Origin: a virus
DNA length: 21,681 bases
IMG/VR virus record: IMGVR_UViG_3300042938_002700
Location: 1-21,681 of that record
Direction: 5' to 3' (one strand)
This document shows, piece after piece, positions 2,791 through 18,988 of the stretch. Under the pieces are notes generated by a model, which saw only the letters and a list, made by a program, of their open reading frames with translations, was not told where the DNA came from and did no database searches. The stretch's first letter is position 1. The number at the start of each line of letters is the position of its first letter. The position numbers were made by a program, and so were the translations under genes.

Positions 2791-2993
2791 TCGTCGCTCG
2801 GGCTCGCGGGGAGATGATCGCCACACCAGTCGTCCGGCATGACCTGCGGCCACATGGCGATCACGCCGTGGCCGTCTTCGTCGGGGTCGATGATCGACTC
2901 CGGCTTCGGTGAGTTTTTTCGGCACACGCCAAAATTGGTTTTGATCTCACGGTAGAACCAGCACGTCTCGCATGACCGGGCGGTGGTTTTCAC
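2787..2993 (-). CDS. Small Cys4 (rubredoxin-like) phage protein (68 aa)
   Basis: The start is GTG at 2993, overlapping the upstream TGA as GTGA. Longer frames to 3305 are rejected because they translate to arginine-rich shadow. Cysteines at residues 8, 11, 24 and 57 fit the small pattern CxxC, then GxCR, then WP and DDWCG that I know from many prophage and environmental phage proteins of unknown function. A structural zinc or iron site is likely. The stop overlaps the next start by 4 bases, so it is probably translationally coupled to both neighbours. Confidence 0.8.
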   Translation of the reverse strand: MKTTARSCETCWFYREIKTNFGVCRKNSPKPESIIDPDEDGHGVIAMWPQVMPDDWCGDHLPASPSDE

Positions 2994-3454
2994 GTCGCGT
3001 CTCCGATCGTCCAGTGCTTCGGAGCCTTGTCGGCGTGCTTGTCCGTGACGGCTTTCACGAGCGGCGTGAGCTGCTCGACGAGTTTCTTGTAGCCGCCGGG
3101 GAACTGCCGGTCGTCCGTCATCGTGCCGGCGGCACGGGCGTCGACCATGATCGCCAAGCAGGCGAGCGCGGAGCTGAGGTGCGGGATGCCTTCCTCGTCG
3201 CATTCCTCGCCTTCCTCCCAGGCGGCGATGTGCCGGCGGAGAGCGTCGGTGTACCTGGTGGCCCGGATGCCGGCTTTCCGCCAGTTGGACCGGCCGTACT
3301 TGCACGCCCCGTTGTGGAGGGCGATCGACCCGAGCGCCGTGGCGGTGGCCGGCCAGAGGTGCAGCGGGAGTTTCGTGGCCCCGACGACGTCCTTCGGGTT
3401 TTCGAGGACCAGCTCGGTGTCCATGTCTGCGGCGTCGTCGATTTCGTCTTGCAT
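2990..3454 (-). CDS. DUF5664 / dATP-dGTP diphosphohydrolase N-terminal-like protein (154 aa)
   Basis: Residues 19-116 carry the features of the phage family called DUF5664 or dGTP_diPhyd_N: NPKDVVGATKLPL, GACKYGRSNWRKAGI, TRYTDALRRHIAAW, EGEECDEEGIPHL and ending TDDR. The conserved H75, E81/E83 and H92 could form a MazG/HD-like metal site (inference). In characterised relatives the role is hydrolysis of dATP or dGTP to shape nucleotide pools, but activity is not proven for single-domain versions like this. The ATG at 3454 has GGAGG 11 bases upstream; an open frame extends to 3619 but overlaps the previous gene out of frame. About 35 residues follow the domain with no clear motif. Confidence 0.75.
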   Translation of the reverse strand: MQDEIDDAADMDTELVLENPKDVVGATKLPLHLWPATATALGSIALHNGACKYGRSNWRKAGIRATRYTDALRRHIAAWEEGEECDEEGIPHLSSALACLAIMVDARAAGTMTDDRQFPGGYKKLVEQLTPLVKAVTDKHADKAPKHWTIGDAT

Positions 3455-3491
3455 CTCGTCGAGGTCCTCCGGAGACAGGATCGAGGTCAGT

Positions 3492-3776
3492 CTATCCAGA
3501 CTCAGCCACGGAGTCCACGATGCGATAGCCGAGGCTCCAGAGGATTTTCGCGAGGTCGTGGGCCTGCTGGTGGACATGCTCCTCCGAGAGCGTGGGATTT
3601 GCGGCGTGAAGAAACTCATGGCACTCAGTCTCCAGTCTGGCTCGTTTCCTGAGCCGGGAATCGATCAGGATTTTCGGTTTCTCGCCCCCGACGTACGCCC
3701 ACCCCTCGGCACCGCCTCGGAGTTTCACGTATCGCCAGGCGTAGCGAATGCCGCAGATCAGGAAGTGGTGGATCAT
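3492..3776 (-). CDS. Putative HExxH metal-dependent peptidase-like protein (94 aa)
   Basis: The ATG at 3776 overlaps the stop of the large upstream gene as ATGA; longer in-frame starts are shadow. HEFLH at residues 53-57 is a classic HExxH zinc motif. It is preceded by a helix with LETECHE and followed by a second helix ending in DLAKILWSLGYRI, which resembles small phage and planctomycete proteins with HEVLHA and ARILWRLGY. ImmA/IrrE- or SprT-like minimal zincins are the nearest idea. Catalysis is inferred from the motif only. Possible targets are a structural protein or the host envelope, but nothing here decides. Confidence 0.7.
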   Translation of the reverse strand: MIHHFLICGIRYAWRYVKLRGGAEGWAYVGGEKPKILIDSRLRKRARLETECHEFLHAANPTLSEEHVHQQAHDLAKILWSLGYRIVDSVAESG

Positions 3777-6700
3777 TCGAGCCTCACCGCGATGTTCTCG
3801 CAGAACACCGGCGACCACTTGACGAGCTTGGCCTGTCCTGTAGCTCCACCTCCGCCCGCGCCGTAGATCGTCACCGACGGCGAAGACGCGTAGGCTCGAT
3901 CGGCGACTCGGCTCCCGTTGAAGACGTAGAGGTACTCCACCCATCCGTCGACGTAGTGAGGCAGGAACCGCCAGTCGGCGAGCCTCGCACTGAGATACTC
4001 GACCGTGCTCAGGCTTCGCTGTTGTGGCACGTCTTGCCAGGCGTACTCGGGCATGGCAGACGACAGGTAAACTCCGGCGTTGTCCGTGACAAAGGCAGGG
4101 CCGTACGAGCTGCCGAGTGTGTTCCTGTCTACGATCGTCACCGTCGGCGTGTATGCGTAACCCGATCCCTTGTTCGCAACGGCGATCGTCGCAATCCCGA
4201 GGCCGTCAGCCTGGAAGGAGAACGATGCGACTCTCGCGGTCGCGCCCGTGCCTCCGCCGCCGGAGATGATGATGTCCGGGACGGCGTTGTACCCTCCGCC
4301 TGTTGAAGTCACGTTGATCGCGACGACTTCACCGTTGGCGTTGACGACCGCCGTGGCCGTGGCCTGGTGGTCCCACACGTATCGGCGGCCACCACGGATC
4401 GCGAGCTTTGCGTTGAACGTGTAGCCCGTCCCGCCATTCGTGACGCCAATCGACGACAGCCGCCCGCCCGTGCCCCACACCGGAGAGAGCACGCACCCGG
4501 CCCCCGCGACGTCCTCGACCGTGATGGACGGAGCAGTCGAGAACGCCAGACCGTAGCCGTAGTAGCCGATGTTGTCGAAGCCGCCGATCGGCCCCACGGC
4601 GGAGAGGTGGAGATTGTTTCCGTCGAGCCCGTAGCCTCCGCTCGTGTTGCCGGCTGACTTTCGGATCGGCCCGGCTGCGGCCTGCGTGCCGTACAGGCTC
4701 ACCGTTTTGCGAAAAAGGTTCGTGTCCGATCTTGCTCCGTACGTATCACGGAACGAGATCGACGGGACGTTGTGGTAGAGACCTCCGGACGTGACCGATA
4801 CGGAGGTCACCGATCCGGAGGAGTTGGTCGTCGACAGGCTTCCGGCCGTGTGCTCGAACTCTTTCTCGAACGCGGCGGTCACCACGCCGTTGTAGTAATC
4901 GAGCGGGTTGTACCCGCTCCCGCCGTCGGTGAGCGACACCGCCGAAACGGGGCCCAAGATCCTTGCCTGGAGGATGGCCACTTGGCCCGACGGAGACGCC
5001 GTGGCGGTGACCTCCGGGGCGGTCTGGTATCCGCTGCCGCCGTTGGTGACCTTCGCGAAGATCATCTTGCCGCTGATCGTCGCGGTCGCTGCGGCACCTG
5101 ACCCGCGAGCGACCACAGAGGCCACCGCCGTGGCTCCGTCGCCGCCGCCCCCGATGAAGAGCACCCTCGGGGTGTCCAGGTACCCCGAGCCACGGCTGGT
5201 GATCACTACCTGGCCGACGCCGCCGCTGCCGTTGAGCGTGCAGTAGGCGGCCCCACCGGAGCCGCCGCCGGCCCCAGCGACGATCCTGACCTCGGGCGCC
5301 GACGTGTAGCTCCCGCCAGCGTTGGTGACCGTGATCGCGTCGATGTCCGGGACAGGCTCAAACGACACGGACGGGGCGGCCCGGTACGTCCCACCGCCGG
5401 CGATCGCCACCTCGGCCACGCCGCCGTTCGCGTTGATCGTGCACGTTGCTGTGGCCGACACGCCTGGCTGGGAGAATCGGACGACAGGTGGCAGCCGGTA
5501 CCCGCTACCGGCGGCGGTGACCGACACCGCGTCTACGGGGCCCTGGATGACGGCATCCGCCGTAGCTCCGCCGGCGATCGAGATGGACGGAGGCGTTTGG
5601 TATCCGCCCCCGCTGTCGAGGACTCCGATCGTCACCACACTGCCGTTGAGCGTCGCGAGGGCCGAGGCCACACCGGCCGGCTGAGACAGCTCGACGCGGA
5701 CGGGATCGGTGTAGCCGGCTCCGGTCGACGTCAGCTTGAGAGACAGGTTGCGGGATGTTTTTGTCGCGTCGTCGCTGCTCCCGTACCACCTCGCATCGTC
5801 TCTGATCTGGCCATCGCCCAGAAGCGTCCAGTCGCCGTCATACGCCACGGCTCCGGCCAGCTCTCTGGCCCTGTATCCGCTTCCGTACGTTGGCACAGAC
5901 GACGAGTCGATCGACCTGACAGCCGACCCCAGCCAGGGAGGCCCGTACCAGTTGGCCCAGGAGTTCGGGTTCACCCAGTCTGGCATCGGAATAAAACTTC
6001 CGGACGCCGTTGGCTTCATGCCTCCGAAGAGAGTGGCCCATCTCATCGGCAGAACGTCAGACCAGTTCGGAAGTTCAACTACCACCACGGTCGCCCCTGA
6101 CCCCGTGGCGGAGACGATCGATGCGGACACAATGTCTCCGTACACCACAACAGGCGGGAACGATCCGTCGGCCATTGCGGTCTGCACTTCACGCTCGAAC
6201 GTCTGCACTGCTGGCAGCAGCGAGATGCTCTTCACCTCCGTGTACCCGGTAGGCGTGGAAAACTGTCCGGTCGTTGTCTGAACTGAGTAAGTGTTGACGA
6301 CAACCCTGAGCTTGTCTCCGGCCTTGTATCCGTACCCCGGCTCCTCGACGAACGCAGCTCTCATCACGGATACGGACGGACTGACCGCAGACTTTGACGA
6401 GTACCAGTTCACGTGATATGTGTCTACCGTCTCCTTCGTTTCCGTCCCCGTGAAGAAGACTGGCCTTGTTCCACCGCCCGAGTATGCGCCGACGCTCCAC
6501 CACTGTCCGTTCTCATCTCTCGCCAAGCCGCGATGAACGTGCGTGAAGTTGACGGGCCCAACAAGCCTGGCCGTCGCGGCGACTCCAGCGGGCGACGAAG
6601 TCACTTCTGGAACGGACGTGTAGCCGATGCCTGGATTGATCAATGTCGTCGTGAACAGACCGTACGTGTACGAGAACTGTTGCAACGCATAGTCTGCCGA

Positions 6701-8524
6701 TCCGTACAGGAACTGTCCGTTCGCGCCTCCTGACGCCTGAATGCCGCTCGGAGAATCAGGCGGCGTGACCGACAGAGAAACGGAAACAGCGTTCGGTCCA
6801 GAAACGGACGACGTCATTCCGACTGTCGAGTCGACGTCGATCGCAATGCCTTGGCCTACAGGGGTCGGGTATGACCACACGCCACTGGCGTTGTTCCCCC
6901 GCCCCCACCACCACAGCTTTCCCGACGAGTCGATGGCGGTTCGTCCGTAGTTGGCCAGGTTGAGCGATGTCTGGCCAATTCCATCAATGTCTTTCCACGG
7001 TCCGGCCGAAACCATCCGGGGCTCGGCGACACCACCGTAGACGATGTACGCCGGGGGCTCGATTGAGTACCCGTCGCCTGGCTGCACCAACCCGTTGCTG
7101 CCTCCGAACTCGTACCAGCCGATCGCCGGTGTTTGCCCCTCTCGGTTGAAGTACACGGACACGACGTTCCCGGCCGAAAGCGTGAAGCCTAGGTTAAACG
7201 CGAGGTCGTGAACTGGGGCCGGCGTGAGATTGACGATGCCAGCCACCTCTGTCTTTTCGCCGTCGCTGGCGACCGCGTAGAGGACACGGTCCCTGGCTCC
7301 CGATGGCCGGTACCCGTACGCGTTGTGGTACGGGTTGTCGGCGTTGTAGTAGCTGTCGTACGAGGTGGAGTACCCAGTCCCAGGATGGACAATCTCGAAC
7401 GATTGAACGGGACCAGACAACGAGTCGACGACCGCCGTGGCTGTGCCCTGAATGGAGACCCTCGGGGGCGAGGTCCAGATCTCTGGATTTTCCAGCATTC
7501 GGATGCCGGTGACGCCGCTGGGGTACGGGACGGCCTCGGCCTGTGCCCCGTTTCCGTCGCCGGTGATGTAGACGGGATATTTCAGAAGCGGGCTGTTCGC
7601 CGATCCTTCGCTGGTCATCGTCCACCCCGTGATCACGCCCCCCGTGATCACAGCCGTCGCTGCTGCGTTCGTCCTGCCGTCTCTGACCGATGCGAAGGTG
7701 TACCCGCTCCCGCCCGCGAGGACGCGAAAGCTGGCGGTCTTCGACGGAGTCATCACGGCGACCTCTGCCGTTGCGACCTTGCCGGCGTCTTCCGCTGCGA
7801 CGGGAATGATGGTCACGGCCGGCGGTGACATGTACCCGGCGCCGGACGATGTGACGGATATGCCATCGATCCTCCCGTACCACACAGCCTCGATGTCACC
7901 GCCGAAGCCCGTCTCGATGTCGAGAGTGGTGTACCTGTCGGACGTCCTCGCCTCGATCCACGCCGTGGGTTTGCTTGAGAACTCCGTGCTGGTCGGCGTC
8001 ACTGACTCGATCGAAGACTGGAGTCGTGCTACGACGGTGTTCGAGAATCTCCCGGTCCAGCCGAAGGGGTAGGTGCCACCGAGCACTCCCAGCCCGAGTG
8101 CTCCCCTGGCGTTCGTCCCGATCGACCACATCGACCCATCGCTTTTCAGGAGCAGCCCGCCGTTGCATTTCACCCAGTCGGTGTCGGTGCCGACCTGGAG
8201 CATCTCGGTCGAATACCCGTAGACGCCATGCATCAGACGGTGCGAGATGTTCACCGGGGACTCGCCCCACGTCCACAGCGTGCCGTCAGACCGGATGGCC
8301 AATCCGCACCAGCCGCCGTTTGCGTACTCCGAATCGGCTGCCTTCGTGACGCTGATCCAGTCGCCCTGGTTCTCGATGAACGGCCCGTACGGACCGCCCT
8401 CGACCTGCGGATATGTCCGCTCGGCCGCGACGTCGCCGCAGTACTGCGAAGGCTCCGCCTGACCGCCGATCGACGCCCACGTGTAGATCTGCGGCTTGCT
8501 GCTCACGTCAGCAGCCCCCACCAT
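3773..8524 (-). CDS. Giant RCC1-like and GxGY beta-repeat tail-associated protein (1583 aa), probable host-contact appendage
   Basis: No signal peptide or membrane segment is visible. Residues about 10-150 resemble RCC1 propeller blades (IYTWASIGG, CGLAIRSDGTLWTWGE, LLLKSDGSMWSIGTNARGALGLG). Further blade-like pieces lie near 535-545 (SGKLWWWGRGNN), 675-685 (GQWWSVGAYSGGG) and 900. Between and after them I count about 20 copies of a repeat centred on G-x-G-Y or a variant, followed by xxxPxVxI and often a glycine run, densest from about residue 930 to 1560. Such repeats are typical of elongated beta-rich adhesins and phage fibres. Position after the tape measure and tail-tip genes supports a tail fibre, spike or receptor-binding role (inference). 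Start is uncertain: ATG 8524 overlaps the upstream gene by 17 bases, whereas GTG 8506 lies one base after its stop with a GGGG upstream. Confidence 0.8.
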   Translation of the reverse strand: MVGAADVSSKPQIYTWASIGGQAEPSQYCGDVAAERTYPQVEGGPYGPFIENQGDWISVTKAADSEYANGGWCGLAIRSDGTLWTWGESPVNISHRLMHGVYGYSTEMLQVGTDTDWVKCNGGLLLKSDGSMWSIGTNARGALGLGVLGGTYPFGWTGRFSNTVVARLQSSIESVTPTSTEFSSKPTAWIEARTSDRYTTLDIETGFGGDIEAVWYGRIDGISVTSSGAGYMSPPAVTIIPVAAEDAGKVATAEVAVMTPSKTASFRVLAGGSGYTFASVRDGRTNAAATAVITGGVITGWTMTSEGSANSPLLKYPVYITGDGNGAQAEAVPYPSGVTGIRMLENPEIWTSPPRVSIQGTATAVVDSLSGPVQSFEIVHPGTGYSTSYDSYYNADNPYHNAYGYRPSGARDRVLYAVASDGEKTEVAGIVNLTPAPVHDLAFNLGFTLSAGNVVSVYFNREGQTPAIGWYEFGGSNGLVQPGDGYSIEPPAYIVYGGVAEPRMVSAGPWKDIDGIGQTSLNLANYGRTAIDSSGKLWWWGRGNNASGVWSYPTPVGQGIAIDVDSTVGMTSSVSGPNAVSVSLSVTPPDSPSGIQASGGANGQFLYGSADYALQQFSYTYGLFTTTLINPGIGYTSVPEVTSSPAGVAATARLVGPVNFTHVHRGLARDENGQWWSVGAYSGGGTRPVFFTGTETKETVDTYHVNWYSSKSAVSPSVSVMRAAFVEEPGYGYKAGDKLRVVVNTYSVQTTTGQFSTPTGYTEVKSISLLPAVQTFEREVQTAMADGSFPPVVVYGDIVSASIVSATGSGATVVVVELPNWSDVLPMRWATLFGGMKPTASGSFIPMPDWVNPNSWANWYGPPWLGSAVRSIDSSSVPTYGSGYRARELAGAVAYDGDWTLLGDGQIRDDARWYGSSDDATKTSRNLSLKLTSTGAGYTDPVRVELSQPAGVASALATLNGSVVTIGVLDSGGGYQTPPSISIAGGATADAVIQGPVDAVSVTAAGSGYRLPPVVRFSQPGVSATATCTINANGGVAEVAIAGGGTYRAAPSVSFEPVPDIDAITVTNAGGSYTSAPEVRIVAGAGGGSGGAAYCTLNGSGGVGQVVITSRGSGYLDTPRVLFIGGGGDGATAVASVVARGSGAAATATISGKMIFAKVTNGGSGYQTAPEVTATASPSGQVAILQARILGPVSAVSLTDGGSGYNPLDYYNGVVTAAFEKEFEHTAGSLSTTNSSGSVTSVSVTSGGLYHNVPSISFRDTYGARSDTNLFRKTVSLYGTQAAAGPIRKSAGNTSGGYGLDGNNLHLSAVGPIGGFDNIGYYGYGLAFSTAPSITVEDVAGAGCVLSPVWGTGGRLSSIGVTNGGTGYTFNAKLAIRGGRRYVWDHQATATAVVNANGEVVAINVTSTGGGYNAVPDIIISGGGGTGATARVASFSFQADGLGIATIAVANKGSGYAYTPTVTIVDRNTLGSSYGPAFVTDNAGVYLSSAMPEYAWQDVPQQRSLSTVEYLSARLADWRFLPHYVDGWVEYLYVFNGSRVADRAYASSPSVTIYGAGGGGATGQAKLVKWSPVFCENIAVRLE
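3828..5735 (-). repeat. GxGY protein-level tandem repeat array, dense part
   Basis: The minus-strand coding sequence repeats a unit of roughly 35-55 codons: a strand ending in VT, then GGSGY or a close variant, a short turn with PxVxI, and a glycine/alanine-rich link such as GGGGTGATA. Copies are diverged at DNA level, so the array is old or under diversifying pressure and not a fresh expansion. Confidence 0.75.
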
Positions 8525-8906
8525 TGACGAGCACGTACCCCGTGCCTCCGGTGTCGTCTGGCATCACGTAGCAGATCCGTGGATTCTGGCCGCTGCCGAC
8601 GGCCGGGGTGAGCGTCTGGAGGTAGTTCGCGCATGCGGCAGTCTCAGCCGTGTTCGACGCGAACGTGATTTGCTTCGCGGTGCTGACGAGCCACCCGCCG
8701 TAGAAGTACGCGGTCCGGACCGACGTGCCACCGCCGCCTGCGCCTGCGGCCCGTGGGAGCGTCGACGGCTTCCGCTCTCGGCGGTGGCCCTCGTACCACA
8801 AGACGGCGGTGTTGATCCGGGCCGCATCTGACAGCGTGAACAGACTGGGAGCGTCACCGTTGTTCACGCCGGTATTCTGCGACGGTGTGGCGCCGTACTG
8901 GGTCAC
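8508..8906 (-). CDS. Hypothetical tail-tip region protein (132 aa)
   Basis: I choose GTG at 8906 because it overlaps the upstream TGA as GTGA, the same junction used elsewhere in this operon, with GGGGA 8 bases upstream. An alternative GTG at 8921 would add five residues. The protein has a beta-rich, glycine-rich look (AAGAGGGGTSV, TAYFYGG) and a helical stretch around residues 80-100. It ends with a strand reading GTGYVLVNGGGC. No family is recognised. It sits between an unknown tail protein and the giant repeat protein and could be an adaptor or chaperone for it (inference from order only). Confidence 0.7.
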   Translation of the reverse strand: MTQYGATPSQNTGVNNGDAPSLFTLSDAARINTAVLWYEGHRRERKPSTLPRAAGAGGGGTSVRTAYFYGGWLVSTAKQITFASNTAETAACANYLQTLTPAVGSGQNPRICYVMPDDTGGTGYVLVNGGGC

Positions 8907-9817
8907 TGATAGTATCCCCACGAAGGACCAGGGAGAGACGCGTTGTTCGGGTTCGCGTCGGGGATCTCGGGGAATGTGTCAGCGAACGTCCGCATCGGGT
9001 AGATCCTGAACGTCAACTGGTTCGGCGGCAGGCCAGGAGTCTTGGCCAATCCTCCCTGGAGCGCAACCGGTTCGCTGACCGGCCCGTCGGACGACAGGAT
9101 CTTGAATCGCTGCCCGCCGATGATCTGGTTGAAGCCGACGTCCCACGTCTGGAGGTCCCACCCGGTGTTCCGGTACGCGAGAGTCGTGTTGACCTCGTAG
9201 TAGATGACCTTCCCGTAGACGGGAATCGACTCGATCTTCCGGTTGGCGGTGATCGACATGCACTTCCAGGTCTTCGGCGCCCCGCCGCTCCACGTGTCGG
9301 AATTGATGGCTCCGACGTAGAGCTGGGCCTTTCCGTACGGGAACGGAGGAGGGAAGTTGCCCGTGATCGTCACCTGGAACTCGCCCTCGTCGCGGTCGAG
9401 GCCGCCGATCGGGTCGCCGGCCGTGTTGTGGATGATCGCCTTGGTGTCGTTGTCGCTGTCTCCGCCGCTGAAGTACCAGAACGCGGGGGCCGACGCGAGG
9501 CCCCCGGAGAAGGAGTAGAGGAACGGTCGATCCCATGGAACCTGGGCGATGCCGTCCGACGTCTTGTAGGTGAACGACACCTTGTAGTGGAAAGGGGAGT
9601 CGCCGTCTTGCGACACGTTCGACTCAATCAGCACCGCCTCGGAGTCTTCCGGGTGTGGATCGAGCCACGACACCCCAGGTGCCTCGCTGATTTCCTGGAA
9701 GTCAGGAGCCAGTTCGTCGACTCGAACCAGGAAGATCCGGGTGTAGACCGGCGTGTCGCCGTACGACGTCTGCCTCGATCGGCCACGGAACATTTCACGA
9801 GCGTCAACGACTGGCAT
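8903..9817 (-). CDS. Unknown tail protein directly after the tape measure (304 aa)
   Basis: The ATG at 9817 overlaps the tape measure stop as TGATG, with GGGAG 6 bases upstream; a GTG one codon earlier is possible. The protein is beta-rich without coiled coil or membrane segments. Recognisable pieces are VYTRIFLVRVDE near the N-terminus, FHYKVSFTYKTSD, GKVIYYEVNTTLAYR and a C-terminal LTFRIYPMRTFADTFP. I recall broadly similar proteins in environmental phages but no named family. Genes right after the tape measure usually encode distal tail or tail-tip components, so that role is inferred from position. Confidence 0.75.
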   Translation of the reverse strand: MPVVDAREMFRGRSRQTSYGDTPVYTRIFLVRVDELAPDFQEISEAPGVSWLDPHPEDSEAVLIESNVSQDGDSPFHYKVSFTYKTSDGIAQVPWDRPFLYSFSGGLASAPAFWYFSGGDSDNDTKAIIHNTAGDPIGGLDRDEGEFQVTITGNFPPPFPYGKAQLYVGAINSDTWSGGAPKTWKCMSITANRKIESIPVYGKVIYYEVNTTLAYRNTGWDLQTWDVGFNQIIGGQRFKILSSDGPVSEPVALQGGLAKTPGLPPNQLTFRIYPMRTFADTFPEIPDANPNNASLPGPSWGYYQ

Positions 9818-12800
9818 CACCGTCTCCCAAGCTGGGCAATAACCGGCGCGGCGTTTTTGTCCTTGGTCGCCTCGACGAGTTCGCGGGTGTTCCGGACGAC
9901 CTGGAGCTGAGCCTTGAGCGACGGGTTGTCGTTTCCGCGAAGGATCCGGAAGAACGTGTCGACCCCGGCCTTGCTGCGGGTGTCGGCCCCCTCCGCCTGG
10001 CGGCGGTCTGGCATCACCGACTGAAGGGCGGGCATAAGGGAATCCTGAAGTTCTGCCTGGAGCGACGTTTTTCGCTCGGCGTATTCGCGGCCTCCGATCC
10101 CCGAGGCGTTGAGCTTGGCCAGATCCTCACGGAACTTGACCAGAGGGCTGTCCTGGCCGCCGGGGAGCGTCTTCATCAGGGCCCGCATGCCGGCGGCGAA
10201 CTCCTCTGGGGCGTTCTTGCCGTCCTTGCCGTAGGCCTCTTCGAGCCGCTTCTGCTGGTCGTCGAACCTGGCCTTGAAGTTTGCCGACGTCTCGCCGGCC
10301 CCGAGGGCTTCGTCCCGCTTTCGCTTCGCGGTCGACTCGGCAAGCTGCTTCTGCTCAGCGGTCAGATTCCCGCCGGCTTCCGTGATCTTCTTCATCATCT
10401 CCGCAAACTCTACGGCCGGCGTCTTCTCGATCCCCACCGACGCGAGGAGCCCCTCGTTGGCGGCCTTGACGGCACGCTCGAACAGGCCAAGCTGTGCGGC
10501 GTTTCCGTTGAGGCGAATGCGAACCTGGTCGAGAGACAGCCCGGCCATGCCGAACTGCTCTGCGATGTTCGAGGAAGCGATCTGGAAATCCTCAAGCGGG
10601 GTCTTCGTGACTCCCAGCGACGACACGAAGCCTTCCGTGGCCTTCCGCATCGCTTCGTCCGTCTCGGTCTGCGTAGCCCCGACGGCCGCGAGCTTCTGGT
10701 TCAGCTCCTTGAGCTTCTCGATGCCGGACTTTTCGACTCCGACCGACTGGAGAACTTTCTCGCGGTTCTTCGCAATGGCTTCGTCGTAGAGGGCGAGATC
10801 GCCTGGCATGCCGGCCAGGGCCGCCCTGGCGTCGTTCACCGACTTGCCGGCCTGGCCGAACATGTCGTTGATCTTCTCGACGCCGATCGCCATGGTGTTG
10901 CCAAGGTCCTCGTCGAGCCCGAGTGCTGACCGTCCCTCGGCCGCCAGAGACAGCGATGCGCCCCGCTGTCTCGACTGGTCGAGAAACTGAACGCTGTTCG
11001 ACTTGTCCTTGAACTCGCTGCCGACGCTCGTTCCGAACAGTCCCTCCGCGTACTCTTTCTTCGCGGATTGAGCCGCCAGGGCCGCCTCAACTTTGTTCAG
11101 GGACTTGTTGTCGGCGATCTTTTCGAGTTCTTTTTCGAGCTTCTCGGGGCCGGACAGAAACGCCGTTTCGAGCTTCTTGCGGATCTCGTCGGCGAAGCCG
11201 GTGTCCCTGCCGATGGCGTCCATCGATCGCTTCTGGGCTCGCTGGGCTTCCTCAACGGCAATGGCAGCGTTCTCGTCGCCGGCTTCTCCGGACCCAAACT
11301 GGCCCTTCTGCTTCTTCCTCTGGATGTCAGCGACCGCTTTTTCGTATTCGTCCTGAACACGGGCCAGTTCTTCTTTGATCGCTTGGGAGGTTGGGAAAAA
11401 CTGCCCCTCGACAATCGTTCCAGACGAAACCTCGCGGGCAGACTTCGCAAAATCCTTGACGGAGCTGTTGAGGCTCTTGAAGAACTCTCGGTTTTTCTTG
11501 AGGGCTGTTGCTGCGTCCTCGTCTGAGAACAGCGTGAAGTTCTCCCTAGTCTCCTCGGCAATCTTCTGGGCCCTTTTCTCGAACTCCTCCAGAGACATTG
11601 GACTGCCTGTTTCTGGAGACTTCCTGAACTCTTCCTGGAGATTGTTGAACTCTTTGAGTGCTCTCTGCGACGCCTCTTCCGCCTTGTCGCCAAACTTGCC
11701 CGACTCGACGAACAGCTCGTCCATCGAGTCCCTTGACCGACCCACGGCAGCTTTGACTTCTTCCTGGTCCTCCACGAACCTCTTGATTGGTTCCGATTCG
11801 TACTCGAACCCAAAGACGGCGCCAATTTGCGACCCCGCATCGTTGATCGCTCTCTGCTTCTTTGCGGCGACGTCCGCGTACTCCTGTCGGCTCTTTGCAA
11901 TGTCCTCGGCGCTGGCTTTTGCGGAGTCGATTGCCTTCGGCTCTTCGATCCCTCCCCACAAGGCTGCGATTCTTCCTGCCATGCCTCCGAAAAACCCAAT
12001 GGTGGCATTTACTGCGCCAACGAACATTCCCTTGAAGTAGTCGGCGATACCCTTGATAGCCTCCCTCATTCCATCAAACGTAAACAGCTTTGCGAGGTTT
12101 TCTTGCCAGTTGGAGAAATAGTCAGTCAGGGCGTCAAAGTTGTTGTAGATCTCGTACGCGGCCAGCAGCAAAAGCCCGATGCCGAGAGTCGCAACAACCC
12201 AGGACGCGGCCATCGCAATCGACGCCATGTTCACTGACAATACCATCCTGGCCATCCCGAGCAGGAACTGCCCGACGGCGATGGCTGTCGTGGTGACGAG
12301 CGTGTACACCATCGTGGCGCCCAGCATCACGAAACGTCTTATCGTAAGGAGAATGCGAGTTCCGCTTCCTGCCTCCATTCGCACCATCGCGGCGACGTAG
12401 CTGATCGACGTGAGAAGCGCCTGCGCTGCCAACTGAACGAGATCGATGGTGAGGAGCCGAATGAGCCGGACTGCCCCCTGGATGACGGAGCCCACGCTGA
12501 GGCTTCTGATCCAAGTCCAAGTCGCTTGGGCTAAGGTCCAGAGCCTTGCCTCAAGGCCTCCAAACAAAGGGGCAAGAGGCATCATCGCAATCGTGAACGC
12601 GGCTGCTGACGCGATTCCGATCGCAAAGTTGACTGCCGCTTCCTGGATCGCTTTCACCAGGGGCGACATCCCCTCAGCGGCGCCTTCGGCGCCTTCGGCA
12701 GCGCCGCTTGTCGCTTTGGCAACGGCGGAGAAATACTCTGGAACCATTGAGTCGTACGTGATCGCAGCAATCTCGTTGAGAGTGTCCGCGAGCGCCTCGA

Positions 12801-14775
12801 TTGGCACCATCGCCTGCCTTGCGTACTCTCCGAGAACCTGGACGAGCCTCGCGGCGATGGGGAAGTTCGACAGCGCGGCGGTGACCTTCATCAACGCGGC
12901 GGCCATGCGGGCAAGGATGTTTATGACTCGACCGGACACCTCGATCACCTGAGCCAGGGGCTCCGTCATGTCGGCAAACAGAGAGCCAGAGTTCTGACTG
13001 AGCGTGGCGAAGCCGCCCAAAACGTCCGCGAGAAAGTTGTTGATGCCAACGGTAAGCTCAAGGAAGCCGGTCAGGCCTGCCTCACCGAAACTTGCCGAAG
13101 CCCGTTCAAGCCTTGAAAACGAAGCAGCCATCTCTTCGCCCCGAGCAAAATCGAGGCTGTTGGTCGTGACGTCGAGCCTCTCGACCTCCTCCTTGGCCCT
13201 CTTGATGTTCTTCAGGGCCGGAAGGATGTTGACGCCGGATTTTCCAAACAGATCGAACGCGATGGCCGATCTGTCGGCCGGGTCCTCGATCTTGTTCAGG
13301 GCCTCGGCAACCATCTCGAAGATTTCGTGAGGCTTCTCTGCCTTCAGGGTTGCCACGGAGATGTTGAGCTTGTCAAAAGCCAGCTTCGCCTCTCGTACAT
13401 TTTCCGTGTTGATCTGGCCAATGCGAATCTTCGAGAGAGACGAGTAGAACTGCTGCTGGCCCTTCGCAAGCTGCGACATGCTCACGCCGGCGATCGACGC
13501 CGCGTAACGCAGCTCCTCGACCTGCTGGGTAGCCATGCCGAATCGGTCTGCCATATTGCGAATCGAGACAATCTCGCCGGCCATGTGGTGCATCTCGTGA
13601 CGCACGCGACCAGTGGCGACGGCCGCAGCGGCCGAGTAGATGGCGATCGACGGAAGGATCCCGACGAACCTCTCTACCGCAGCGGACGCTCCGGAGACTG
13701 CTCCCGCGAGCGGCCCCATGCCTCCATTGGCCAAGCCGTAGACGGCGCCCGTCAACGCGCCAAAAACTGCGGAAGTTGCGCCGAGCCGGAGGGCTGTTCC
13801 AATCCAGGTGTTCAAAGACGCCCGGTCGTCGGCGGCCACGCTTACGAGTTCGATGGCCGCAAACAGATCTCCAAGAACGCCCGCGACGTCGCCGATTGGC
13901 CCCGAAGTCGCTCTCGCTTGTTCGCCCATCCGGCGGAATCCGCCGGCCACTACTCCGGCAATGCCGCCAGAGTCGCCTGCCGCTTCTCGAAACGCCCGAA
14001 GCCCGATGGCGGCGGCCCTCGTGCTGGCGTACAACGCAGTCCCCGCCGCAGCGGCTTGCACGGCGCTGTCGACGTAGCCGCGAGCCTCTTCGTTCATTCC
14101 GGCGGTTGCGTACCTCGCAACGCCCATGGCGGCCGCGTACACGGCAGCGCCTGCTGCAAGGCCGGACAAGGACCCACCGAGGCTTGCTATGACTGCCCTG
14201 GTGGCTGTCACGTCTCCTCGCAACGCCTGGATGACGGAAGTGAAGCCTCCCGTTGAGGCCGCGACGCTGGCCGCCACGGTGCCTACGGCGGCCAAGGCGA
14301 CACGGTATCGTCCGGCCGCTACGATCGCAGCCTCGAACGATCGCTCCCAGCTCCCGCCCGAAACGGAAAGCTCGATGGCGTCCCCGGCTGCGGTGGCTGC
14401 CCCCCCGACGGCCCGCATGGTGTCCGAGATGCCGCTCAGCGGCTGCTCAGCGGCTGCAATCTCGGTGAACGTCTCCCGCATCCTGGCGAGGGCCTGGCTC
14501 GCCCGGGACGCTTCAGCGACGGCTTCCGAGGCATCGGCATGAACGTGGACGGTCGGGGCCTGCCTCTCGATTTCCTCGCCGAGGTCTTCTACCTCGCTCG
14601 TGTCGACTGCGGCCCTGACGGCCACCGTCGATTCGGATGCAAGCTCAAGCTGATCCGTGATCTGCTCGACGCTGGCGACCAGGCCCCTCAGGAGCGACGA
14701 CGCGTCGGATGTTCCTCTCTGGAGACCGCTGAGGTCGGAATCGAAGACGGTCGTGATGGTGCCAATCGTGGCCAT
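9817..14775 (-). CDS. Phage tail tape measure protein (1652 aa)
   Basis: Great length, alanine-rich N-terminus with alternating hydrophobic segments, long charged helices and its place after the G/GT chaperones identify a tape measure. Residues about 400-560 carry the core pattern of phage tape measures: MADRFGMATQQVEELRYAA, then MSQLAKGQQQFYSSL, then DPADRSAIAFDLFGKSG. Hydrophobic segments that could enter a membrane during DNA injection lie at roughly 700-730 and 850-890. Residues 950 to the end are coiled coil. Two adjacent 102-residue units at about 1298-1490 are internal repeats. The ATG at 14775 has GAGGTG 5 bases upstream and begins 3 bases after the chaperone stop. At about 3 bases of tail per residue-scale helix, a long tail is implied. 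Confidence 0.93.
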   Translation of the reverse strand: MATIGTITTVFDSDLSGLQRGTSDASSLLRGLVASVEQITDQLELASESTVAVRAAVDTSEVEDLGEEIERQAPTVHVHADASEAVAEASRASQALARMRETFTEIAAAEQPLSGISDTMRAVGGAATAAGDAIELSVSGGSWERSFEAAIVAAGRYRVALAAVGTVAASVAASTGGFTSVIQALRGDVTATRAVIASLGGSLSGLAAGAAVYAAAMGVARYATAGMNEEARGYVDSAVQAAAAGTALYASTRAAAIGLRAFREAAGDSGGIAGVVAGGFRRMGEQARATSGPIGDVAGVLGDLFAAIELVSVAADDRASLNTWIGTALRLGATSAVFGALTGAVYGLANGGMGPLAGAVSGASAAVERFVGILPSIAIYSAAAAVATGRVRHEMHHMAGEIVSIRNMADRFGMATQQVEELRYAASIAGVSMSQLAKGQQQFYSSLSKIRIGQINTENVREAKLAFDKLNISVATLKAEKPHEIFEMVAEALNKIEDPADRSAIAFDLFGKSGVNILPALKNIKRAKEEVERLDVTTNSLDFARGEEMAASFSRLERASASFGEAGLTGFLELTVGINNFLADVLGGFATLSQNSGSLFADMTEPLAQVIEVSGRVINILARMAAALMKVTAALSNFPIAARLVQVLGEYARQAMVPIEALADTLNEIAAITYDSMVPEYFSAVAKATSGAAEGAEGAAEGMSPLVKAIQEAAVNFAIGIASAAAFTIAMMPLAPLFGGLEARLWTLAQATWTWIRSLSVGSVIQGAVRLIRLLTIDLVQLAAQALLTSISYVAAMVRMEAGSGTRILLTIRRFVMLGATMVYTLVTTTAIAVGQFLLGMARMVLSVNMASIAMAASWVVATLGIGLLLLAAYEIYNNFDALTDYFSNWQENLAKLFTFDGMREAIKGIADYFKGMFVGAVNATIGFFGGMAGRIAALWGGIEEPKAIDSAKASAEDIAKSRQEYADVAAKKQRAINDAGSQIGAVFGFEYESEPIKRFVEDQEEVKAAVGRSRDSMDELFVESGKFGDKAEEASQRALKEFNNLQEEFRKSPETGSPMSLEEFEKRAQKIAEETRENFTLFSDEDAATALKKNREFFKSLNSSVKDFAKSAREVSSGTIVEGQFFPTSQAIKEELARVQDEYEKAVADIQRKKQKGQFGSGEAGDENAAIAVEEAQRAQKRSMDAIGRDTGFADEIRKKLETAFLSGPEKLEKELEKIADNKSLNKVEAALAAQSAKKEYAEGLFGTSVGSEFKDKSNSVQFLDQSRQRGASLSLAAEGRSALGLDEDLGNTMAIGVEKINDMFGQAGKSVNDARAALAGMPGDLALYDEAIAKNREKVLQSVGVEKSGIEKLKELNQKLAAVGATQTETDEAMRKATEGFVSSLGVTKTPLEDFQIASSNIAEQFGMAGLSLDQVRIRLNGNAAQLGLFERAVKAANEGLLASVGIEKTPAVEFAEMMKKITEAGGNLTAEQKQLAESTAKRKRDEALGAGETSANFKARFDDQQKRLEEAYGKDGKNAPEEFAAGMRALMKTLPGGQDSPLVKFREDLAKLNASGIGGREYAERKTSLQAELQDSLMPALQSVMPDRRQAEGADTRSKAGVDTFFRILRGNDNPSLKAQLQVVRNTRELVEATKDKNAAPVIAQLGRR
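10305..10884 (-). repeat. Two-unit internal repeat in the tape measure (102 aa period)
   Basis: KINDMFGQAGKS, encoded from 10875, aligns with NIAEQFGMAGLS, encoded from 10569, exactly 306 bases later. Matching follow-ons are LxGMPGDLALYDEA with LNGNAAQLGLFERA, and LQSVGVEK with LASVGIEK. Confidence 0.75.
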
Positions 14776-18022: not shown

Positions 18023-18234
18023 CGTCGCTTGCCCCTGTTCTGCTCTGTCGCGTACTCCACGCTCGCGGTCGGGGCCACGGCGGCCTCGACGACGTTCTGC
18101 TCGGAGCGGCTGGCCTTCACGTACTCGGCGATGCCGTCGAACACCCACTGTCGAGCCATCGGCGAGAAGATCTCGACGACGTCTCCGGCCTTGTTCCAGC
18201 CCCAGTCCTTCAGCATCTTGACTTTGTCAACCAT
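18019..18234 (-). CDS. Small conserved phage protein (71 aa) next to the connector
   Basis: The ATG at 18234 overlaps the end of the glycosyltransferase gene by 8 bases and has AGGA 9 bases upstream. The N-terminal half, VKMLKDWGWNKAGDVVEI and VFDGIAEYVK, matches a small SH3-like motif seen in many phages (K-x-L-K-x, A-G-D-V-V-E, then a helix ending G-I-A-E). The C-terminal half, residues 43-71, is low-complexity and ends in a basic NRGKRR tail. Function is unknown; such genes commonly sit between capsid and connector genes. Confidence 0.7.
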   Translation of the reverse strand: MVDKVKMLKDWGWNKAGDVVEIFSPMARQWVFDGIAEYVKASRSEQNVVEAAVAPTASVEYATEQNRGKRR

Positions 18235-18988
18235 TGCCGCTCTTCCTCGAATGGTCTTCGGATCCCCACGCCTCCGGTGGTCTCCGTCCGCCGTCGTTCC
18301 AGAAGTGAGTCGGGTACTGATGGATCGCCTGGAGCTTCTGGTCTGGCCAGGTGATCACGAGTTCCGCATGACCGATCGAAACCTGCGGACACACCGCAGC
18401 GGTGTTGCCGGCCTCTCGAAACTTGCGCCAGAAGAATATGTCAGGATCGACGCGGCCTTCGCCCCAGTCGTTCTCTTCGTTCGGCACGCCGATGAACCAC
18501 GGCTTCTTCATCCGACGCAGGGCCGCCGTGCGGATGATGGTCAAGCCGAAGTGGGCCGTGTCGACCGGCTGGGCCTGTTTTGTAAACCACTCCGGATCGA
18601 GCGTGATCTCCGTCGGGCCGTTCCCCGTCATGCCTGCCGGCGTGAACATCAACGTCTTGTCGTCCCTCTTCGTCTGAAGCGGGGCGATCGCATCGACGCC
18701 GCTGATCAGCATCGCCGAGAAGAGCCTGGTCAGGCAGTCCGGCTCGAAGACGCTGTCGTAGTCCATCGTGACCACGAAATCGTTTCCGGCCTCTTCCTTC
18801 GAGAGGTCGGACAGGATCCTGGTCATCGTCTGGTCCCAAAAAGCACCAGTCCCCTTGGTGATATTCACACCGTGGGGACTGAATGCCGAGAAGGCGCAGA
18901 AGAAGTTGTCCTGGAAGCCCAGTCTTGGAACCGACATGCAGGCCGCAACCTTCACGTCGTGTTCAACATTGCCAACGATCACTCGCAT
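18227..18988 (-). CDS. GT-A-type glycosyltransferase-like protein within the head gene module (253 aa)
   Basis: The likely start is ATG 18988; GGAG lies 10 bases upstream and a stronger AGGAGG 17 bases upstream. FVVTMDYDSVFEPDCL holds a DxD motif (D76, D78) on a strand, as in nucleotide-sugar-binding GT-A folds. Further marks are GVDAIAPLQ (97-105), AHFGLTIIRTAALRRM (145-160) and VDPDIFFWRKFREAG (180-194), which resembles the ED-x-x-x-x-x-R-x-x-x-G acceptor region. Residues 1-20 are strand-like (VKVAACMSVPRLG). A role in adding sugars to capsid or to other virion proteins is inferred from position. The donor and acceptor are unknown. Confidence 0.78.
   Translation of the reverse strand: MRVIVGNVEHDVKVAACMSVPRLGFQDNFFCAFSAFSPHGVNITKGTGAFWDQTMTRILSDLSKEEAGNDFVVTMDYDSVFEPDCLTRLFSAMLISGVDAIAPLQTKRDDKTLMFTPAGMTGNGPTEITLDPEWFTKQAQPVDTAHFGLTIIRTAALRRMKKPWFIGVPNEENDWGEGRVDPDIFFWRKFREAGNTAAVCPQVSIGHAELVITWPDQKLQAIHQYPTHFWNDGGRRPPEAWGSEDHSRKSGNG

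Follow-up and report, generated by a model that had tools for sequence, protein, structure and literature searches.

A candidate host-recognition protein from an uncultured phage lineage combines RCC1-type blades with a conserved GxGY repeat array

The window, a stretch of viral DNA of 21,681 nucleotides (IMG/VR record IMGVR_UViG_3300042938_002700, positions 1 to 21,681), encodes on its minus strand a giant putative distal tail protein of 1,583 amino acids, P0001 (3773..8524), with collinear relatives in the same gene slot. Its open reading frame (8524-3773) contains no internal stops. The exact start codon is uncertain because the closest GGAGG lies approximately 20 bases upstream, farther than usual. 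The giant is the third gene after the tail tape measure gene (9817..14775, minus strand; PHROG tape measure matches of 1e-16 and 4e-15), in a string of overlapping genes comprising the tape measure, a conserved 305-amino-acid protein termed P305 (8903..9820, minus strand), a 137-amino-acid gene sharing a few bases with each neighbor (8508..8921, minus strand) and the giant itself. A sequence-only reading had described the giant as being as large as the tape measure, in agreement with the lengths found (1,583 and 1,652 amino acids). P305 was without a named family in Pfam and PHROGs, and its structure model was weak (pLDDT 59.7) with an uninformative fold search.

Several other features of the window were observed. 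Immediately following the giant, a small reading frame (3492-3776, minus strand) contains a CHEFLH (HExxH) motif and perhaps encodes a small metallopeptidase, with no match in Pfam. The gene at 2990-3619 (minus strand) carries a dATP/dGTP diphosphohydrolase N-terminal domain (PF18909, 1.6e-21); the label of its best PHROG, 'endolysin; inhibits RNA polymerase', looks like a misnomer. In the relatives L002 and L006 a similar gene, followed by a deaminase-like gene, lies after the swapped slot described below. A family-2-like glycosyltransferase gene (18227-18988, minus strand; Pfam E-value 7e-4, under the curated cut-off) lies between the capsid and the tail genes, within the structural module. 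On the plus strand, a 66-nt repeat (264-329 and 1226-1291, 86% identical) precedes two plus-strand genes; with a TTGAC box inside and CAGGAG at its end, it resembles a promoter and ribosome-site leader that has been duplicated.

RCC1-type blades in P0001 were sought with an HMM trained on relatives, with P0001 left out, and 540 shuffled giants served as the control (best score 9.1 bits). Matches were obtained at residues 53-90 (27.9 bits), 114-146 (21.4 bits) and 507-543 (13.9 bits), corresponding to blade 1 (residues 52-92; 8249..8371), blade 2 (residues 113-146; 8087..8188) and blade 3 (residues 506-548; 6881..7009), which, like all parts of the giant given below, are encoded on the minus strand. 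Two degenerate blades, blade 4 (residues 650-690; 6455..6577; 2.0 bits) and blade 5 (residues 868-925; 5750..5923; -1.3 bits), were not significant in P0001 alone and were recognized solely by aligned positions in relatives, where scores reach 22.8 and 31.3 bits, respectively. Of the blade fragments previously proposed at about 540, 680 and 900, the first is therefore real, given its 13.9 bits against the shuffled best of 9.1, and the other two are seen only via the relatives. The RCC1 families of Pfam were not found in P0001 itself and were present in 10 of the 19 proteins in the alignment of relatives. A profile search of the two N-terminal blades against RCC1 propellers of known structure gave a best E-value of 4.5e-20. 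By its detectable blade motif, P0001 belongs to the RCC1 repeat family.

The remainder of the protein is made up of inserts and GxGY repeats. P0001 contains 16 strict GxG[YF] motifs compared with a mean of 2.3 (maximum 9) in 1,000 shuffles, and a repeat HMM identified 17 GxGY units; the earlier count of about 20 was slightly high, and an array far above chance was upheld. Insert A (residues 160-500; 7025..8047) contains GxGY units, insert B (residues 549-649; 6578..6880) contains one, and insert C (residues 691-867; 5924..6454) is a block in which some relatives contain an additional (sixth) cryptic blade. The dense GxGY array of eight units (residues 926-1210; 4895..5749) is followed by a C-terminal part with five more (residues 1211-1583; 3776..4894), which is variable between relatives. 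DNA identity between repeat units is at most 74%. A profile search of the PDB with the array alone yielded no match.

AlphaFold2 was run on residues 1-1200 with 23 sequences in the alignment, and the whole-chain model was weak (mean pLDDT 63.8, pTM 0.39). Residues 210-390 of insert A (pLDDT mostly 82-92) and residues ~960-1190 of the array (pLDDT 85-93) were nonetheless predicted as all beta. The sequence-only reading had named predicted disorder in place of beta repeats as evidence against it; this was not seen, since the GxGY parts were confidently all-beta (pLDDT mostly 82-93). The blade region is partly unresolved in the model because residues 1-52 and 818-929 had pLDDT values below 50. 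Foldseek aligned stretches of roughly two blades (77-101 columns) to RCC1 propellers with probabilities of 0.94-1.00 and weak E-values of ~0.08-0.3. A complete closed RCC1 propeller usually has seven blades, and P0001 has five blade positions, with the sixth cryptic in some relatives. The propeller-like N-terminal part proposed earlier holds as two blades, not as a complete propeller. Closure by N- and C-terminal half blades was not supported, a 'YTW' being visible by eye with scores not above the control.

P0001 as a direct query against viral contigs gave no matches, its divergence probably being too rapid for this, and relatives were found via the neighboring P305 instead (35 loci by sequence, 56 by alignment). 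Nearly all close P305 loci that reach far enough carry, in the corresponding slot, a giant open reading frame in which GxGY and RCC1 motifs occur. About 20 uncultured relatives encode collinear proteins of 2,216-2,870 residues there (19 full-length), sharing the block order blades 1-2, insert A, blade 3, insert B, blade 4, insert C, blade 5, array and C-terminus; P0001 is the shortest of the family, mainly via shorter inserts. Because the same slot in relatives holds collinear giants, the RCC1 and GxGY architecture is, on this comparative sequence evidence, an inherited family. The more distant distal proteins of L034, L071, L077 and L079 contain GxGY units and no detectable RCC1 blades, so the combination is on present evidence confined to one clade. 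In L013 and L014 the slot holds a different protein of 1,629 amino acids without detectable GxGY units or blades. A cultured phage relative or a host of the lineage was not found among genome contigs and phage records. PATR (autotransporter passenger) repeats were detected in L079 (9315-12911) and in one of the 19 proteins of alignment A1 (E-values 1.5e-15 and 2.4e-20). Furthermore, direct duplications of 320-400 bases (75-77% identical) occur within the tape measure genes of L002 (7412-7734 and 8189-8511) and L024 (7763-8160 and 8165-8562).

Comparison of closely related loci revealed replacement of the entire gene. L002 and L006 share flanking DNA that is 82% (before the giant) and 85% (after it) identical at the nucleotide level, and in L006 the giant gene is absent, with ~1.4 kb of small genes in its place. 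No match to P0001 was present in the L006 (42-kb) and L007 (76-kb) records; the giant is therefore not the only solution in the lineage. L028 and L029 have P305 proteins with 98% amino acid identity and downstream DNA with 94% identity, and their giants are only 21-43% identical by block, representing a deeply diverged allele. Between L002 and L008, identity was 88% for P305, 80% for the tape measure and 62% for the giant. The tape measure is at least as diverged as the giant in some pairs (L016-L018: 47% vs 58%). Replacement or fast divergence between close relatives and a position distal to the tape measure, both characteristic of the receptor-binding and tail-tip class, were thus observed, the latter in the window as well as in the relatives.

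Within the giants of close relative pairs, the dense GxGY array was the most conserved block (76-88% amino acid identity) with almost no change in length; across distant clades the main array varied from 5 to 16 units. The earlier proposal that the repeats drive variation was not sustained, since units are at most 74% identical in DNA and the array, nearly constant in length, is the best conserved part among close relatives. Repeat slippage was rejected as a source of variation in close relatives on the same grounds. Recombination itself was evident, as whole-allele and segment exchange at the array borders and not through the repeats. At four-fold sites in four pairs, the array differed by 19-40% and the rest of the gene by 64-73% (Fisher p 4e-16 to 2e-35), the strongest contrast being 19% vs 68% (p 2e-35), and the shift in synonymous divergence was located close to the array borders. 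Three of these four pairs come from one lineage, leaving two independent cases. Because synonymous divergence falls sharply at the array borders, the giant is best described from these sequences as a mosaic whose shared block is the array, on evidence from relatives in two independent lineages; the array nearest to that of P0001 is 49% identical, and the mosaic evidence thus comes from the relatives alone.

The pairs also suggest which parts moved. In L017-L022 the flanks of the array look replaced, because the array is in line with the genome background (tape measure 36%, P305 45%), and in L016-L018 the array itself looks exchanged, because it is younger than P305 (19% vs 43%). The P305 tree groups L017 with L018 (support 100/99), a grouping rejected by the array (p-AU 8e-8). 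Codon or nucleotide constraint acting without recombination might also lower synonymous divergence in the array, in which Gly and Ala codons of a high-GC genome are abundant. However, the array reaches the same saturation as the other parts of the gene in distant pairs (L002-L003, 70% vs 74% and 67%; L028-L025, Fisher p 1.0), and the P305 and array topologies conflict. As the saturated pairs are without contrast, codon bias is a highly improbable cause.

Taken together, P0001 is probably a distal tail (tail-tip or fiber) protein with which long-tailed phages of an uncultured lineage recognize their host. RCC1-type blades are spaced by beta-rich inserts, several with GxGY units, and followed by the long GxGY array, which may form a rigid beta shaft, while the blades, inserts and C-terminus would provide variable host-contacting surfaces. 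Among the relatives, the gene changes by wholesale allele replacement and by exchange of segments whose junctions lie at the edges of the conserved array. A tail-tip protein for host recognition is in keeping with the gene position, the divergence and the replacement; virion location, the shaft role and receptor binding are inferred. The sequence-only reading had singled out the giant as the best candidate for receptor recognition; it is indeed the most plausible host-recognition gene because of its distal tail slot, fastest divergence and exchange between relatives. Recognition proteins typically diverge fast and are swapped, although these features are not proof, and RCC1 propellers have other functions too. 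More tentatively, and on the unlikely side, the blades could belong to one RCC1 propeller ring split by long beta inserts, with the GxGY array as a built-in recombination joint for recognition halves.

P0001 could instead be a structural tail or baseplate protein in which GxGY repeats and RCC1 blades serve assembly or decoration, with recognition located elsewhere, e.g. in the adjacent small genes. Sequence and fold matches are mostly to cyanophage virion structural and baseplate-wedge proteins, via the repeats, and the GxGY structural protein of Prochlorococcus phage P-SSM7 has a 21-kb gene that neighbors baseplate gp6. We consider this unlikely: for a purely structural part, one would not expect unrelated genes to take its place when the backbones are 82-85% identical, nor the deep difference between L028 and L029 despite a neighbor protein that is 98% identical. 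A surface-degrading or carbohydrate-binding protein (a depolymerase or capsule-binding protein) that is not the primary receptor binder appears improbable, as neither Pfam nor PHROGs revealed an enzyme family in P0001; large tail proteins are often depolymerases, and the PATR autotransporter-type repeats in one alignment protein and one distant distal protein would be in keeping with such a function. For the most part, the tail-tip proteins encoded by uncultured phages go unrecognized. As a likely host-recognition protein, P0001 is the basis of a family in which two modules are combined in an unusual architecture, and comparison of its relatives directly reveals the gene changing, by whole replacement or by exchange of parts at the array borders. 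This provides a concrete case of modular evolution and corrects the view that repeats of this kind vary through copy-number slippage.

The architecture had previously been described as not attributable to a known phage fiber family, and consistent with this no curated family matched P0001 over its full length. The blade motif is common to P0001 and RCC1 propellers (PF00415, PF13540, PF25390). Stand-alone RCC1 copies in phages, such as those of Synechococcus phage S-SRM01, have 5-8 contiguous blades or part-blades in ~340-410 amino acids, whereas P0001 has five positions that, after the first two, are spaced by inserts of 100 to 340 residues. The GxGY unit is shared with cyanophage virion structural proteins (PHROG 701, 19630, 5342 and 708; E-values down to 7e-38), as reflected in the 17 units of P0001; tblastn matches to these proteins cover the repeats only (25-29% identity, ~18% of P0001), with homology among the matches listed at residues 917-1226 and not outside the repeats. 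The P-SSM7 protein resembles P0001 in its giant size, and contained no RCC1 blades in the stretch examined. The combination of RCC1 and GxGY was not found in phage records with limited queries, and is not described in the titles, abstracts and passages seen of the open-access literature on RCC1 in phages. Passages of the respective reports describe RCC1 proteins in virions of phage W70 (PMC11370258) and RCC1-like virion components of phage GAP32 (PMC5259590), both by mass spectrometry, and similar genes of phAPEC6 (PMC7247149). These are myovirus proteins, for which the same passages do not report GxGY repeats. The receptor-binding protein of Staphylococcus phage phi11, a tail-tip protein, combines a beta-propeller with a repetitive all-beta domain (PMC4901313). 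It differs from P0001 in having a five-bladed propeller closest to glutamine cyclotransferase and in being without a GxGY array, with no sequence relation shown. By analogy, the propeller of the phi11 protein and the RCC1 proteins of W70 virions may serve as precedents for P0001 as a host-recognition protein of the distal tail.
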